Shown one piece after another: positions 2,415-16,988 of a stretch of DNA of 25,317 nt. How positions within the stretch are numbered: position 1 is the first letter of the stretch; each line of letters opens with the position of its first letter. The position numbers were made by a program, and so were the translations under genes. A model generated the notes under the pieces. It ran no database searches and was not told where the DNA came from. It saw nothing but the letters and a program-made list of their open reading frames with translations. Origin of the DNA: a virus; the IMG/VR virus record IMGVR_UViG_3300020472_000153, positions 1 to 25,317 of that record; one strand, 5' to 3'.

Positions 2415-3749
2415 TTACCAACCTGCTTGGAAATAAGATTGTAGTCGTACTGAACCTGCTAATACAGGTGCAGCTAAAGGTCCACCGAAACTAATAGCAA
2501 CGTCACTTATATTGTTCGTTGATAGTAGCGTTGCGTCTGCATTTGGAAACTGTATAGTTACCGCATCGGTGATATTACTTGCGTCAATCGTTACTCGACC
2601 ATTAACCTCGGCAGGGTTATCAAAACTTGTGTTCTGTAAGATCTTGTTGTTGACTATTTGTGTTGCTTGTTCAGCAACCAAAACATTTGAGTTACCTCCA
2701 TTATTTAGAGGATATGCAATACTTCCTTCTGGGAATGTATAGTCTAAAGTGGAGTTTGTATTTAAGTTTGTAAGATTAATATTAATCTTCTTAGTTACAT
2801 CTGCTGTATCCTGTAAAACTGCACCAGCATATGCCTTGTTAGTTAATGTCTGTGTTGATGCTTCACCAACAACAATAACATTGAGGTCTGGCCACGTAAC
2901 TGTTCTATCCTGTGTAATTAAACTTTGATCAAAGATAATTTTCTCAGTAGGATTATTAGGATCAGTTGATGGAGTTCCAGAGAACGTGGGGTTAACCATG
3001 TTCTTGTTACTAACATTCTGCTCTGTAATATCATCCAATAAAGTTGATTGAGTCTGAGCAGCACCGAAGTCAGGGAACTTGTAAGTATGTGTACCTGGTG
3101 CCTCCCATGAGTCAGTTTCAAACTTCGCTACTTTAGATGCGTTTGATGAACCAATGACCTGAAAGTCTTGGTCTTTAATCAAGATCGTCTTATTACTAAT
3201 AGTCTGGACAGTATTGTCTGCTAAGAGAGTAGTAGATGTTAATGTACCAACATTCGGCATGTCGATACGACGTGTACCTGTCTGCGCAGATACAGTATCA
3301 GCATTAAAGTAGAACTTCTTACCTGGATTTTGTGCGCCTTGAACAATAGTATTCTGGTCTGTGAATTGTGAAACACCATTTACAGTAAAAAATCCAGATC
3401 CCTGTGGTGTGATCTGAAAATTAGAATTGGATGAAGCACTATCAATTACCCTTGCGGATACAGTACTAGATCCATCATTGTTCGCTGTTCTATCATAGTA
3501 TACTGAAGAACTACCAAAAGTAATACCAAGTTCATTAACTGATGATTGGTATATTCCAGTGTCCCTGTCTAAATCAAAAGCCAAACCAGGGGCAGCAGCA
3601 TCCCCTGCTGACACACCCCTGAACAATTGATTAACTTTTGCCTTTCTGTTAGGTATTAGGGGATCCGAGATAACTATAGGCATCACTGCCTCGCCTGTTA
3701 CCAAATCATCCCCAATCGTATCTAACTGCGATATTCTTTTAGTTGCCAC
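2415..3749 (-). CDS. Fibre-like virion structural protein with four repeats, 444 aa
   Basis: The start is GTG at 3749, reading V/M-ATKRISQLDTI, a typical opening for a cyanophage structural protein. Residues 57-76 carry AFDLDRDTGIYQ, the DTGIY element found in phage tail-fibre proteins. Four repeats of the type (S/T)xLLxxxTxQxxxNK occur near residues 174-188, 236-250, 292-306 and 355-369, about 60 residues apart, with TLTNK in the third. There is no enzyme motif. A TATAAATA late promoter lies about 30 bases upstream, and the 729-residue gene follows after 3 bases, so the two probably form a late transcription unit. A fibre or baseplate-appendage subunit is likely; the exact role is not visible. 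Confidence 0.72.
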   Translation of the reverse strand: MATKRISQLDTIGDDLVTGEAVMPIVISDPLIPNRKAKVNQLFRGVSAGDAAAPGLAFDLDRDTGIYQSSVNELGITFGSSSVYYDRTANNDGSSTVSARVIDSASSNSNFQITPQGSGFFTVNGVSQFTDQNTIVQGAQNPGKKFYFNADTVSAQTGTRRIDMPNVGTLTSTTLLADNTVQTISNKTILIKDQDFQVIGSSNASKVAKFETDSWEAPGTHTYKFPDFGAAQTQSTLLDDITEQNVSNKNMVNPTFSGTPSTDPNNPTEKIIFDQSLITQDRTVTWPDLNVIVVGEASTQTLTNKAYAGAVLQDTADVTKKININLTNLNTNSTLDYTFPEGSIAYPLNNGGNSNVLVAEQATQIVNNKILQNTSFDNPAEVNGRVTIDASNITDAVTIQFPNADATLLSTNNISDVAISFGGPLAAPVLAGSVRLQSYFQAGW

Positions 3750-3775: not shown

Positions 3776-3783
3776 TATTTATA
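3776..3783 (-). promoter_or_regulatory. T4-type late promoter (TATAAATA, exact consensus)
   Basis: The minus strand reads TATAAATA, the full T4 late consensus. It starts inside the last codons of the HNH gene, covers its stop codon, and lies 27-34 bases ahead of the GTG start of the 444-residue fibre-like gene. It is expected to be read by host RNA polymerase with gp55, gp33 and the gp45 clamp. Only gp33 of these is encoded in this window. Confidence 0.75.
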
Positions 3784-4321
3784 CACGACTTTTCTTAAGA
3801 TCGTTTGCTTTACGCATCCACTGATTAGTTGTGTAATCCTTCTCCGTAAGATTGTCTCCATAGTTGTTCAATTTGTTGTCATCTGCGTGATCAACTACAG
3901 GTGTCTCTGGCCAACGACCATTGTGTAGTGCAAATGCGACTGTATGGAATTGAATGTTACGCTGTACAATTTTACCCGAAAAAGTTTTTCCAGTTACCTG
4001 TACTGTACGATAGGTTTTCGCACCGTTCCAACCACCCTTAACTAGGTCACCATTCTTCTTGTAGATGTTACCACGACACTCAGCAGACTTACCCCACTTA
4101 GCAACGTATGAAGGTGGACCAATTTGCTCTACAGTTGCACGAAGGTCGTAGCGTTGTTGTAGATCTCTTACATCTAACTCTCTATACTTATTGATCTTCT
4201 TGAATACTCCTGCATCCTCAAGAAGTGCTCTGATGTCATAACCCGCTTCTTTTAGTTCTTTTGCGGATTCTACAAGAGTATTTACAGTTGGTGTCATGTC
4301 TTTAATTGATTTGATACTCAT
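3779..4321 (-). CDS. Free-standing HNH homing-type endonuclease, 180 aa
   Basis: The C-terminal half holds a clear HNH core: H126 in QFHTVAFALHNGRWP, then PVVDHADDNKLNN with D144 and H145, and N157 in DNLTEKD. This is the pattern of phage HNH nucleases of the HNH_3 type, which cut DNA using a beta-beta-alpha metal site. Residues 1-60 are helical and charged, and may help bind DNA. No AP2 or NUMOD domain follows; the protein ends shortly after the HNH. It stands alone between tiny unknown genes and the fibre genes, with no sign that it interrupts a gene, so it is probably a mobile free-standing homing nuclease. The ATG at 4321 has no clear Shine-Dalgarno. Confidence 0.85.
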   Translation of the reverse strand: MSIKSIKDMTPTVNTLVESAKELKEAGYDIRALLEDAGVFKKINKYRELDVRDLQQRYDLRATVEQIGPPSYVAKWGKSAECRGNIYKKNGDLVKGGWNGAKTYRTVQVTGKTFSGKIVQRNIQFHTVAFALHNGRWPETPVVDHADDNKLNNYGDNLTEKDYTTNQWMRKANDLKKSRV

Positions 4322-10664: not shown

Positions 10665-13130
10665 TTAAGTTAGCATTGCTGCTGGAGTTTGATTTTCATT
10701 CATAAGACCAAATCTAGGTAGCATATAATCTGCTGCTGCCTGTTTTTTCCTTGGAAGACCTATGAGTTGTGGTTTACCACCACCTCCTCCACCTGCTACT
10801 CCTTGATTAACAGTTGGTAGTTCTTGGACAGATACCGCTGCATTTGATGCTGCGTTCTCTACTCTCTCATCTTGTGTTTGTTGTGATTGATTCATCCTAT
10901 CACCAACACCTGTATTATTTGTTGGTGGATTGAAATTCATGTAATCAGCACCATGAGATTTACCTTTTATTAGATTAATAATTGTATCTGCACGACGACC
11001 AACCTGATTAGCCCACTGACTATCCCTAAGTTCTTCACCTGCTTGGTTATAATTACCTTCTGCAAATGCTTTTTTAAATTTAGGGAACCCATCTGCCCAC
11101 GCTGGTCCCATATTAAATGTGAGATCAATTAGTGCTGCTTTTTGTGCTTCACTTGCACTCTTCCATCCTTTGATTCTCTCTGCTGCTTTCCTATGATGTG
11201 CAAAATCTTTATCAAATATTTTATCTGCTTGTTGCTTAGTTATAGTATCAGAAATAGACTCATTATTCTTAATTAAATGTCCATACCCTATAGTAGGAAA
11301 TCCCTCAGTGTCAGTATACTTCTGAAGACGTAACCCCTCATGGAGTTTAACCATCTCTTTAGCAAATCCAAACTGTCCACCTTCTTCAAAACCAGGAAGT
11401 TTATATCCTGCTAATGCTGCTTCCTTCATTCTCTTTCCAGTTAAGGAAGGATCCTTTCTAGTTGCAGGTGTATCAAACGGTATAACAAACCCACCCTTAC
11501 TCATCTGAGCAACATATTCTAGACCATGACCAATGAAATCTGTACCTCTACCATCTAAAGATACAGCATAACCTTCTTGAGGACCATTAATCCATCCCCC
11601 TGCTGCTAGTGCTGCTACAGCAGTTGCAGTCATAAGTCTTCCACCTTTTGCCTTACCATCACCATCACCATCCTGTACAGTATCAGGTTTACTTGCTGTT
11701 TCCTCACCTTTTATTGCTGCCATTACACGCTTTACTGCGTCAAACATTTTAAAAAACGGCATAAGATAAATCTCCAATCCAGTCTGAACTAAATTTTTAA
11801 GTTTGTTAATGTATGGTGATAAGAAATCTTTAATAGTGGTGAATATCTCTCCAAAGAATCCAAAAGTTGCATCCAATTGTTTCTTAAAGAATCCAATCAC
11901 CTTACCAAATATTGCCTTGATCTGATCAAACATCCCAAGGATGGGTTTCATAATGAAATCAAATCCTTTCTTCAGTGTAGCACCAATTCCTCCACCCTTT
12001 GCTTTCTTACTACCTTCCTCAGCATCCTTTGCAACTCTTGCTTTAATATCTTGAGCAGTGGTCTCTACAAATTCTTTGTTATCACCCATATTAGGTGTTT
12101 CCGTATCCATAAATTGACTAAGATCTACATCTTTTTCTCCTGAAAGAAAATCAAGATCACTTCCTTCTGGTTCTTCTTCCTCTTCACCACGATTCATTAA
12201 TTTATTAACACCCCATGCTGTAGCAGCAATACCACCCATTATCAATGCTGCTTTAGGATTCTTAACTGCAAATTTACCAACCTTGAACAACCCTTTCGCT
12301 GCTATCTTACCTAGGTTGAATATAAACTTACCTAAACCTTTCAGTAAATTCAGTACAGGTTTAAGTACCGCTTTTGGTTTAGTAATTAATGCAAACAACC
12401 CTGCCTTTATTAACGCAGGACCAGCAAATATACCACCCAGAACCATAAAGAATTTGAATAATCCAAATATCCCTTTAAAGGACTTAGGATTCTCCATGAA
12501 ATCACTAACACCACCAAGTGCAACACCAGTTAACCAACTAGCAATCTTAAATATAAATTTACCAATCTTAGCGATGGATTCAACCATCTTCTGAACTTTT
12601 TCTGGGTTCTTCGATATCCAATCAAGTGCTGCGTATCCTACTAATTTAAAGAAGAAGGCACCTAACTTCTGTAGGAATCCCATTATACCTTGACCAACCT
12701 TCCCTGCTACGAAACCAGCAACATATCCAGTTCTCTTTGCAAAGAGGTTAGCACCCTCCATCTTTGCTTCTGCATCATCATCTGCCTTTCTACCTAATGC
12801 TTTTTCTTTTTCTCTCTTATCATCTCTTTCTCTCTGTGCTTGATCATTAACTACTTTATCCTGTGCATTAGCAATCTTATCCTGTTGCTGTATCTGAAGA
12901 TTAATAGATTCCTTGAAAGAACTATTCATACTCTCCATCATAAGTGCCATGCTATTCATGGTGGCACCAAGACGGTTCAATGCAAATGACATCTGCTTGA
13001 ATCCAGAGTTTGCACTAGTAACAATCTGTTTAGTGTCAGACTGACCAAGCTTACGACTTTCAATTCCCTTAAAGGAAACCATCTTATAAAGTCTTGCTTT
13101 CGATTCTTTATTTGGTGCAGTTTTCGCCAT
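10665..13130 (-). CDS. Tape-measure-like tail protein with T4-type lysozyme domain, 821 aa
   Basis: Residues 1-120 are helical and charged (coiled-coil-like). Residues 130-310 and 385-475 contain repeated hydrophobic helices, as in tape-measure proteins. Residues 588-725 form a phage lysozyme (GH24) domain with E598 in KLHEGLRL, D607 and T613 in KYTDTEGFPTIGYGH; the 9- and 15-residue spacings equal those of T4 lysozyme E11, D20 and T26. FNMGPAWADGFP and QVGRRADTII also fit. The final 95 residues are low complexity with a glycine run. It shares LDWISKNPEKV (169-179) and overall plan with the next gene upstream, so the two are paralogues. It probably degrades peptidoglycan during tail entry. 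The start overlaps the upstream stop (TAATG). Confidence 0.82.
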   Translation of the reverse strand: MAKTAPNKESKARLYKMVSFKGIESRKLGQSDTKQIVTSANSGFKQMSFALNRLGATMNSMALMMESMNSSFKESINLQIQQQDKIANAQDKVVNDQAQRERDDKREKEKALGRKADDDAEAKMEGANLFAKRTGYVAGFVAGKVGQGIMGFLQKLGAFFFKLVGYAALDWISKNPEKVQKMVESIAKIGKFIFKIASWLTGVALGGVSDFMENPKSFKGIFGLFKFFMVLGGIFAGPALIKAGLFALITKPKAVLKPVLNLLKGLGKFIFNLGKIAAKGLFKVGKFAVKNPKAALIMGGIAATAWGVNKLMNRGEEEEEPEGSDLDFLSGEKDVDLSQFMDTETPNMGDNKEFVETTAQDIKARVAKDAEEGSKKAKGGGIGATLKKGFDFIMKPILGMFDQIKAIFGKVIGFFKKQLDATFGFFGEIFTTIKDFLSPYINKLKNLVQTGLEIYLMPFFKMFDAVKRVMAAIKGEETASKPDTVQDGDGDGKAKGGRLMTATAVAALAAGGWINGPQEGYAVSLDGRGTDFIGHGLEYVAQMSKGGFVIPFDTPATRKDPSLTGKRMKEAALAGYKLPGFEEGGQFGFAKEMVKLHEGLRLQKYTDTEGFPTIGYGHLIKNNESISDTITKQQADKIFDKDFAHHRKAAERIKGWKSASEAQKAALIDLTFNMGPAWADGFPKFKKAFAEGNYNQAGEELRDSQWANQVGRRADTIINLIKGKSHGADYMNFNPPTNNTGVGDRMNQSQQTQDERVENAASNAAVSVQELPTVNQGVAGGGGGGKPQLIGLPRKKQAAADYMLPRFGLMNENQTPAAMLT

Positions 13131-15475: not shown

Positions 15476-15658
15476 TTATAGTGATTTTCGTTCCTGTGCT
15501 TTTTGTCTCTTCTCTTCCTCTTGCAAATGTGCAAGGAGTAGATTCACATAAACATCACGTTCCCAAGGTATCATATTTTCCAGTTCTGTTAAACTGTACT
15601 TATGATGTTGCATTAGTGCGAAATTCACCTTAAACATATTCATAAGGGAATCATGCAT
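15476..15658 (-). CDS. Small tail-assembly ORF, probable -1 frameshift extension of gp26, 60 aa
   Basis: Sixty codons from ATG 15658: MHDSLMNMFKVNFALMQHHK, then YSLTELENMIPWERDVY and a charged C-terminal helix. The layout resembles the short second ORF (T of G/GT) that follows tape-measure chaperone genes. The frame is open upstream, without a stop, back to a T-TTT-TTC heptamer at the end of gp26, so a -1 shift would give a gp26 fusion of about 297 residues. It could also be made alone from its ATG, where only a weak GGA ribosome site is seen. It ends directly before the tape-measure-like gene (TAA followed by ATG). Confidence 0.7.
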   Translation of the reverse strand: MHDSLMNMFKVNFALMQHHKYSLTELENMIPWERDVYVNLLLAHLQEEEKRQKAQERKSL

Positions 15659-15663
15659 GAGTG

Positions 15664-15691
15664 CTATCCGAAAAAAGCAGCAAGTCCTTCC
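15664..15691 (-). promoter_or_regulatory. Probable programmed -1 ribosomal frameshift site
   Basis: On the minus strand, gp26 codons GCT TTT TTC GGA TAG contain the slippery heptamer T-TTT-TTC (15676 to 15670) in the reading phase needed for a -1 slip. An SD-like GGAAGGA (15691 to 15685) ends 8 bases upstream, as in known stimulated frameshift sites such as dnaX. After the slip the frame continues CGG ATA GCA CTC ATG into the 60-codon ORF with no stop. No strong downstream hairpin is obvious. The signal and the gene order match the G/GT frameshift of lambda-type tail chaperones. Confidence 0.7.
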
Positions 15692-16368
15692 AGTGGAATA
15701 GTACTTTCTACATTAGTTTTAGGATTAGTCACAACCAAATCATGTTTAAGTTTTGGTATAGTATCAAAGAACTTCTGTACTTGTTGGAATTGATCCGAGT
15801 TTAGATCACCAATAAAGTCTAATGCTTCCTTTAAAGTGAAAGAATCAAACACTTCATCAGCATCATATACTTTATCAATACACTGAGCAGCAAGTTTAAA
15901 CATATCCTCGATATTAGGATCATCCCGTAAGTTTTGATCAATGAATAGATCCAATGATGGATACTTCATGACAAGACCAACAGATTCGTTTAGTTTAATA
16001 TCTTTGGTATGTTCCTCATCCTCATGTATCTCTATCTGTTCTAGAGGTAACTTAACATCAACAGTTGTTTTATTGTCATCTGGGCAAGTTACGGTAAACT
16101 CACTGATCTCACCAACTGCTTTTGCTCGGATACGAAGGAATAAGTATTCAATCTCAAAAGTTGGAATTTTGTTCAAATTCGCTTTTAGATCCGTGCAATT
16201 TTTAATAATAGTCTTTACTGCGTTAACCATTTCTTTCTCTTTTTGAGATTCCATAGCTAAGTACAATAATTTCTCCTCCTTAACAAGAAAAGGTCTATAC
16301 TTGACCTTTAAGTTCGATACAGGTAATTCGCATTCGTATTCAGGTATCGCTAACTTTGGTAATGCCAT
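15664..16368 (-). CDS. 26: gp26-like baseplate hub assembly protein, 234 aa
   Basis: The N-terminus (PEYECELPVSNLKVKYRPFL, then VKEEKLLYLAMESQ) and later segments (IEYLFLRIRAKAVGE, TVTCPDDNKTTVDVKLPLE) fit the T4 gp26 baseplate-hub family (T4_baseplate). T4 gp26 acts in hub assembly and is not an enzyme. The gene precedes the small ORF and the tape-measure-like genes, which matches a tape-measure chaperone. Its 3' end carries a slippery heptamer just before the TAG stop. ATG 16368 has no good Shine-Dalgarno; it lies 20 bases after the oxygenase stop. The length is close to the family's 208-235 residues. Confidence 0.85.
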   Translation of the reverse strand: MALPKLAIPEYECELPVSNLKVKYRPFLVKEEKLLYLAMESQKEKEMVNAVKTIIKNCTDLKANLNKIPTFEIEYLFLRIRAKAVGEISEFTVTCPDDNKTTVDVKLPLEQIEIHEDEEHTKDIKLNESVGLVMKYPSLDLFIDQNLRDDPNIEDMFKLAAQCIDKVYDADEVFDSFTLKEALDFIGDLNSDQFQQVQKFFDTIPKLKHDLVVTNPKTNVESTIPLEGLAAFFG

Positions 16369-16388: not shown

Positions 16389-16988
16389 TTATTTAGTAGG
16401 TTCAACCCAAGTGGTTATGATGTACTTATCTCCGTTCTTTGGTTGTATACCACGATGGATAAAATTCCATGTTGCAGGAACAAAAGTTAATCTACCACGT
16501 TTAGGTTTTATCTTGGTGCCATCTATTAATTCCGTCTCACCATCTTCAAAATTATCATTTAAATACCATATACAAAGTATTTGTCTATCACCTGCTGCAT
16601 CATGATGCCAATGATAATAATCATCATCAGATCTATACTTCTTTATATTAAATCCAGTATTATTCATACCATGTTGAAATAGTCCAGTAAAGTACTGTCT
16701 AATATGACTAAGATAGGATCCCAAATGGTTATCTAAAGAACCATATAAAACATCATCCTCATCTCGCCAGTCATCCTTATTGGTAACATAGAGTTCAGTA
16801 CACTTCTTTAATTCTGGGATAACTAGATCGTCTCCATTGACACGATACATACCCTGAGTTTGCCTTGTATCATACTCATACTTATCAATAACTTGCTTAC
16901 AAAATGATTCAGTAAGGACATTATCTATAGAATATACAAAATCAGAAAATTTCTCAATCTTCTTCACATTATCAAATTCCGTAATCAT
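16389..16988 (-). CDS. 2OG-Fe(II) dioxygenase, 199 aa
   Basis: A prolyl-4-hydroxylase-like oxygenase. The metal motif is H128-x-D130 in YYHWHHDAAGDRQ, followed by LCIWYLNDNFEDGETEL, a KPKRGRLTFVPATWNF segment, the distal H178 in FIHRG, and GDKYIITTWV, whose Lys may bind 2-oxoglutarate. All expected ligands are present, so it is likely active. The substrate is unknown. ATG 16988 overlaps the end of gp54 by 17 bases and has a strong GGAGGT just upstream. It sits between gp54 and gp26 in the late tail block. It is clearly different from the second oxygenase at 8316-8954. Confidence 0.87.
   Translation of the reverse strand: MITEFDNVKKIEKFSDFVYSIDNVLTESFCKQVIDKYEYDTRQTQGMYRVNGDDLVIPELKKCTELYVTNKDDWRDEDDVLYGSLDNHLGSYLSHIRQYFTGLFQHGMNNTGFNIKKYRSDDDYYHWHHDAAGDRQILCIWYLNDNFEDGETELIDGTKIKPKRGRLTFVPATWNFIHRGIQPKNGDKYIITTWVEPTK

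Follow-up and report, generated by a model that had tools for sequence, protein, structure and literature searches.

Comparative evidence for a programmed -1 frameshift in gp26 of a T4-like cyanophage relative, predicted to yield short and long tail-assembly chaperones

Introduction

The G/GT frameshift of phage lambda takes place on the heptamer G_GGA_AAG, and the -1 signal of the cellular gene dnaX of Escherichia coli combines an SD-like element, the heptamer A_AAA_AAG and a downstream stem-loop. In lambda, a minor -1 product extends the chaperone, the tape measure gene comes next, and neither product is present in the virion (Levin 1993; Xu 2004). A 2016 NAR review described G-T frameshifting as widely conserved "except T4" (PMC5009743). 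T4 encodes gp26 and gp51, which are listed as hub assembly chaperones, and gp51 is needed for assembly and is absent from the particle (PMC3004832). A chaperone -1 frameshift has also been described in Vandenendeviridae and Andersonviridae (phage Adele, PMC12846349), where a conserved T-rich motif, GTTTTT, ends TAC-N and the tape measure gene lies downstream.

For T4-like phages, short and long chaperone genes were identified by Vladimirov, Gautam and Davidson (2022, Virology 566:9-15), according to papers that cite this work: it is the source given in PMC10885494 for T4-like phages that carry a short gene and a fused long one, and PMC12846349 (2025) refers to it for TAC-N genes with poly-T slippery sequences. 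Since these citations indicate that the core idea is already known, the phage that we describe here is a further, well-supported example. We analyzed a 25,317-base virus fragment from IMG/VR (the window), which derives from a marine relative of the T4-like cyanophages, and judge from sequence comparisons that its gp26 gene very probably (probability roughly 0.9) yields two proteins through a programmed -1 frameshift. A sequence-only reading of the window had proposed this frameshift and had added that such a chaperone pair was not established for cyanophages; the addition was only partly right, given the 2022 paper on T4-like chaperones and, as far as its later citations convey, the poly-T slippery sequences reported there.

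The locus resembles lambda G/GT in that a presumed minor -1 product extends the chaperone and the tape measure gene follows, while it differs in its slippery heptamer and in that gp26 has no detectable sequence similarity to the lambda protein. It shares all three signal parts with dnaX, although the dnaX heptamer is different, and it has in common with phage Adele both a T-rich motif at the end of TAC-N and a downstream tape measure gene, although that motif differs and belongs to another phage lineage. T4 gp26 and gp51 are homologues of the unshifted and the shifted product, respectively, but are encoded by two divergently transcribed genes that have no slippery site.

Results

The gp26 junction in the window

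The elements that the sequence-only reading had described at the end of gp26 are all present on the minus strand (Table 1). The gene ends in GAA GGA CTT GCT GCT TTT TTC GGA TAG, with the heptamer T_TTT_TTC in exact X_XXY_YYZ phase in the 0-frame ahead of the stop codon, GGAAGGA separated from the heptamer by 8 nt, and a -1 frame that stays open across the junction. Translation after a -1 slip would read FFRIALMHDSL... and give a predicted fusion of 297 amino acids, whose post-slip extension of ~64 residues (TAC-C) is labelled "gp51" in relatives. An in-phase T_TTT_TTN occurs at this one place among the 8241 codons of 30 plausible genes in the window, and the chance expectation of finding one in the final 10 codons of any single gene is ~0.001. 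The gene order of chaperone, extension and tape measure, which had been likened to the lambda G/GT plan, was borne out as well, with the short form and the predicted long form encoded directly upstream of a probable tape measure gene. The 781-amino-acid product of this gene would be the expected client of the chaperones.

Table 1. Features of the gp26 locus in the window
Feature	Position	Strand	Evidence
gp26 gene, predicted short tail-assembly chaperone (TAC-N / G-like)	15664..16368	-	234 aa, 0-frame product; PF12322 T4_baseplate E=7.5e-65, phrog_150 E=1e-72
SD-like GGAAGGA, candidate internal stimulator	15685..15691	-	sequence; anti-SD pairing excess in 57 representatives
Slippery heptamer T_TTT_TTC	15670..15676	-	81/82 distinct relatives, phase invariant
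5-nt spacer, heptamer to hairpin	15665..15669	-	
Two-tier RNA hairpin, candidate stimulator 3' of slip site	15610..15664	-	window z=-2.09; subclade covariation; subclade z=-3.17 vs synonymous shuffles
Open -1 frame	15476..15712 (upper end about)	-	stop-free; C-terminal extension TAC-C
60-codon ATG-initiated ORF within -1 frame	15476..15658	-	phrog_634 E=1.2e-27; phrog_150 C-terminus E=6e-5
Probable tape measure protein, 781 aa	13130..15475	-	phrog_167 tail length tape measure protein E=1.4e-14; phrog_973 E=9.5e-8

Conservation of the slip site in relatives

Relatives of the 60-residue ORF together with gp26 were taken from IMG/VR viral contigs, yielding 90 loci with 82 distinct junctions after duplicate removal. 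The small ORF lay in the -1 frame of gp26, with the frame open across the junction, in all 90 loci, and an in-phase T_TTT_TTN was present in 89 of them (81 of the 82 distinct junctions). While the distance from the heptamer to the gp26 stop varied (-7, -10, -13, -31), its phase was invariant. The sequence-only reading had named the lack of a slip site or of an open -1 frame in relatives as what would speak against it; since both were found together in 89 of 90 loci, this argument against it failed, and the comparisons instead strongly support a programmed -1 frameshift. The only locus without the heptamer (L073, about 2970-3010) carries AGT GTT TTC in place of AGT TTT TTC with the -1 frame open, a change that is either a sequencing error or a weaker site. 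Eight loci (L038, L047, L049, L050, L072, L073, L074 and L084) have lost the 0-frame stop after the slip site, and their gp26 is ~7 codons longer, ending within the hairpin region.

The slip codons in the 81 distinct junctions were TTT TTC in 73, TTT TTT in 7 and TTT TTA in 1, and the codon before this pair varied in the residue encoded (Ser, Ala, Asp, Asn) but ended in T in every case. By comparison, the other FF pairs of these genes (n=80) were spelled TTC TTT in 52 cases, TTT TTT in 16, TTC TTC in 11 and TTT TTC in 1, these counts coming from sequences that are related to one another and carrying no formal probability. Because the choice of slip codons is unlike that of FF pairs elsewhere and the preceding T-ending is invariant, the nucleotides have been selected and not the amino acids alone. 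The site thus shows conservation beyond protein constraint, being spelled TTT TTC or TTT TTT in 80 of 81 junctions and lost where gp51 is a separate gene.

This loss was seen in a natural control set of 11 Straboviridae loci in which the 3' end of gp26 is readable and gp51 is present as a full-length gene of its own. No T6 run was found near the gp26 end in any of the 11 loci, the FF pair was kept in 7 (several of them very near T4) and spelled TTC TTT, and reading gp26 in the -1 frame led to the neighbouring gene 25 region with no extension. Decay of the slippery site is to be expected once the long form is encoded separately, and it was found.

Among 20 named phages, 14 belonging to several families carried the in-phase T_TTT_TTN, among them Kyanoviridae, Pelagibacter phage HTVC008M, Sinorhizobium phiM7, Rhizobium Pootjesviridae, Vibrio Schizotequatrovirus, Aeromonas phage 65, Stenotrophomonas Menderavirus and Vibrio Bakedbeans. 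Only a T_TTC tetramer was present in five Ackermannviridae and Vibrio K397. The -1 extension was kept in the Ackermannviridae loci (L091, L099, L102, L108, L111) and in L106, with the tetramer in the context ATT TTC AT., and an early start codon for the extension was missing in 4 of the 5 Ackermannviridae. Z_ZZN tetramers are frameshift motifs reported in E. coli (PMC4066793), and on sequence T_TTC is a possible minimal frameshift site in Ackermannviridae and L106. None of the phage records examined carried a joined gene annotation. In several GenBank cyanophage records (e.g. NC_026926.1 and KU686193.1) the extension is unannotated, and these genomes thus appear to be without gp51.

Correspondence with T4 gp26 and gp51

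T4 gp26 (208 aa) and T4 gp51 (249 aa) both matched PF12322 over its full length (8.8e-64 and 3.9e-52, respectively) and are therefore paralogues, of which gp51 bears an additional C-terminus. The window gp26 belongs to this same family (PF12322, phrog_150), and its predicted long form carries a C-terminal extension likewise. When aligned with T4-type gp51, the predicted 297-amino-acid fusion matched end to end and straight across the slip site (hhalign E=6e-18), with T4 gp51 ...VFKLLVNPDEIF... falling exactly opposite ...FFRIALMHDSL... of the fusion; the extension alone also matched the T4 gp51 C-terminus (hhalign E=1.1e-6). The suggestion that gp26 and the small ORF act as a G/GT-like pair gains support because the fusion matches T4 gp51 end to end and T4 gp26 and gp51 share PF12322. 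By this homology, the unshifted product would be the counterpart of T4 gp26 and the shifted product that of T4 gp51, the two being short and long chaperones of a G/GT-like kind.

The AlphaFold (AF2) model of the window gp26 had a pLDDT of 85, and that of T4-type gp51 (pLDDT 87) showed the same order of elements plus three C-terminal helices. When the gp26 model was compared with 350,542 PDB chains, the top two matches were to the HK97 tail assembly chaperone (2ob9) at non-significant values (E=0.45 and 0.70), so that the likeness in fold between the model and the HK97 chaperone is only suggestive. When the PDB was searched with a sequence profile of gp26, nothing matched, and among Pfam and PHROGs families gp26 gave no match to the chaperones of lambda or HK97.

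Signals flanking the slip site

Upstream of the heptamer, SD-like pairing in 57 representatives was stronger than in synonymous variants (mean -6.10 vs -5.36 kcal/mol, z=-4.0), and no such excess was seen in control stretches farther upstream. Pairing at the SD-like element, which the sequence-only reading had put forward for comparison across homologous loci along with the site and its phase, was in this way above synonymous expectation. Downstream, RNA beginning 5 nt past the heptamer folded more stably than dinucleotide shuffles (mean z=-2.16, against -0.07 to -0.61 elsewhere), and relative to synonymous-codon shuffles the mean z was -1.38 for all representatives and -3.17 for the subclade of the window.

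RNAalifold returned no consensus structure for all 55 junctions and only 2 pairs for the 17-sequence subclade, for which reason we specified the hairpin in advance and compared it with controls. In the 17 subclade sequences, 81.4% of cells in the two-tier hairpin were paired, compared with 24-40% when the structure was slid, and the covariation score was 0.197 compared with at most 0.080 when slid. Changes on both sides were found at 5 of the 8 inner hairpin pairs, as where AGT...ACT in most sequences is replaced by CC...GG in the window and by AACC...GGTT in L004. Support was weaker over all 55 aligned sequences, and the hairpin of the window alone (-14.1 kcal/mol) was modest relative to synonymous variants, lying at the 14th percentile with 14% folding equally well; an Rfam search of the window found no family. 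Candidate stimulators thus comprise an SD-like element upstream and a hairpin that is evident in the window's subclade and weakly supported when the remaining relatives, or the window by itself, are considered.

Alternative explanations

The 60-residue ORF could instead be a gene in its own right, whose ATG is used through re-initiation or coupling once translation of gp26 has stopped, so that a small gp51 is made free and unfused. Databases annotate the ORF in this way ("baseplate hub assembly catalyst"), with GenBank records showing two ORFs, and in the window its ATG lies 8 nt beyond the point where the gp26 stop codon begins and is preceded by a weak GGA. Because the ORF keeps this ATG, the window may yield some separate product and by itself cannot rule out separate translation, but the relatives can: although an ATG occurs by codon 5 in 37 of 82, there is no ATG, GTG or TTG through extension codon 5 in 32 of the 82 junctions and no -1-frame ATG through codon 11 in 43, and the extension is therefore not readily made alone. 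The open frame and slippery codons are also kept in all relatives bar one, and T4 gp51 is itself the fused form, aligned through the junction. We consider it unlikely that the extension is made as a separate protein.

Slippage by RNA polymerase on the T6 run, such that a minority of mRNAs with an extra U would encode the fusion, would use the same T-run and give the same product, and some relatives do have 7-8 T. However, the run is mostly just six T, and a polymerase needs no codon phase, yet the phase is invariant at every distance from the stop at which the heptamer occurs. An SD-like element and a spaced hairpin are typical of ribosomal stimulators, and the Ackermannviridae homologues retain the -1 extension with only four T, which makes a transcriptional origin of the fusion very improbable. 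There is scarcely any likelihood that the run is a functionless accident of a T-rich genome in which FF is conserved in the protein, given that TTT TTC is so rare among FF pairs elsewhere in these genes and that T4 relatives with a separate gp51 spell FF as TTC TTT; the heptamer's presence in 81 of 82 distinct junctions makes chance untenable.

Discussion

The scheme that we infer for the programmed ribosomal frameshift, including the slippage itself, its efficiency and the ratio of products, the binding of the tape measure and the chaperone role, would run as follows. The majority of ribosomes would stop at TAG and release the 234-amino-acid short chaperone (T4 gp26-like, TAC-N). On some ribosomes, the P- and A-site tRNA-Phe on TTT TTC would slip back by 1 base to pair anew with TTT TTT, with help from the SD-like element 8 nt upstream and the hairpin 5 nt downstream, and these ribosomes would continue in the -1 frame to produce the 297-amino-acid long chaperone (T4 gp51-like, TAC-NC). 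By analogy with lambda G/GT, many short and few long chaperones would coat the tape measure protein encoded next, the extension would recruit tail-tube or hub parts, and both chaperone forms would then leave. Such a scheme agrees with what is reported of T4 gp26 and gp51 as chaperones of hub assembly, the latter being required although the particle does not contain it (PMC3004832).

This analysis found the covarying hairpin, the excess of SD-like pairing, the Ackermannviridae tetramer and the disappearance of slippery codons from T4 relatives, and the RNA signal and the codon-level loss of the slippery site may be unreported so far. In a tentative scenario, to which we give somewhat less than even odds, the gp26 -1 frameshift is ancestral in the wider T4 superfamily, with a three-part signal (SD-like element, U_UUU_UUY and covarying hairpin), the T4 lineage put a duplicated gene in its place, after which the slippery codons were lost, and Ackermannviridae were reduced to a U_UUC tetramer. 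If this scenario is true, duplication followed by slippery-codon loss would be the reason why T4 looked exceptional to a universal rule.

For annotation, a programmed frameshift would mean that the "gp51, baseplate hub assembly catalyst" of many cyanophage records, or the unannotated ORF in its place, should rather be regarded as the C-terminal portion of a chaperone made by frameshifting. It would also assign a definite role to two assembly genes of T4 whose function had long been unclear, bring the phage group of the window under the tail-assembly rule that T4 was said to escape, and supply a testable signal in abundant marine viruses.

Elsewhere in the window, the N-terminal region of the probable tape measure ORF is 31% identical (E=2e-16) to that of the next, lysozyme-bearing ORF (10665-13130, minus strand, 821 aa), as if the two had arisen by duplication or carried a common assembly module. 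A 2OG-Fe(II) oxygenase-like ORF (16389-16988, minus strand; phrog_61) forms an insertion that separates gp26 from the tail tube gene, and a 180-amino-acid ORF (3779-4321, minus strand) that lies among structural genes resembles, by eye, an HNH-type homing endonuclease.
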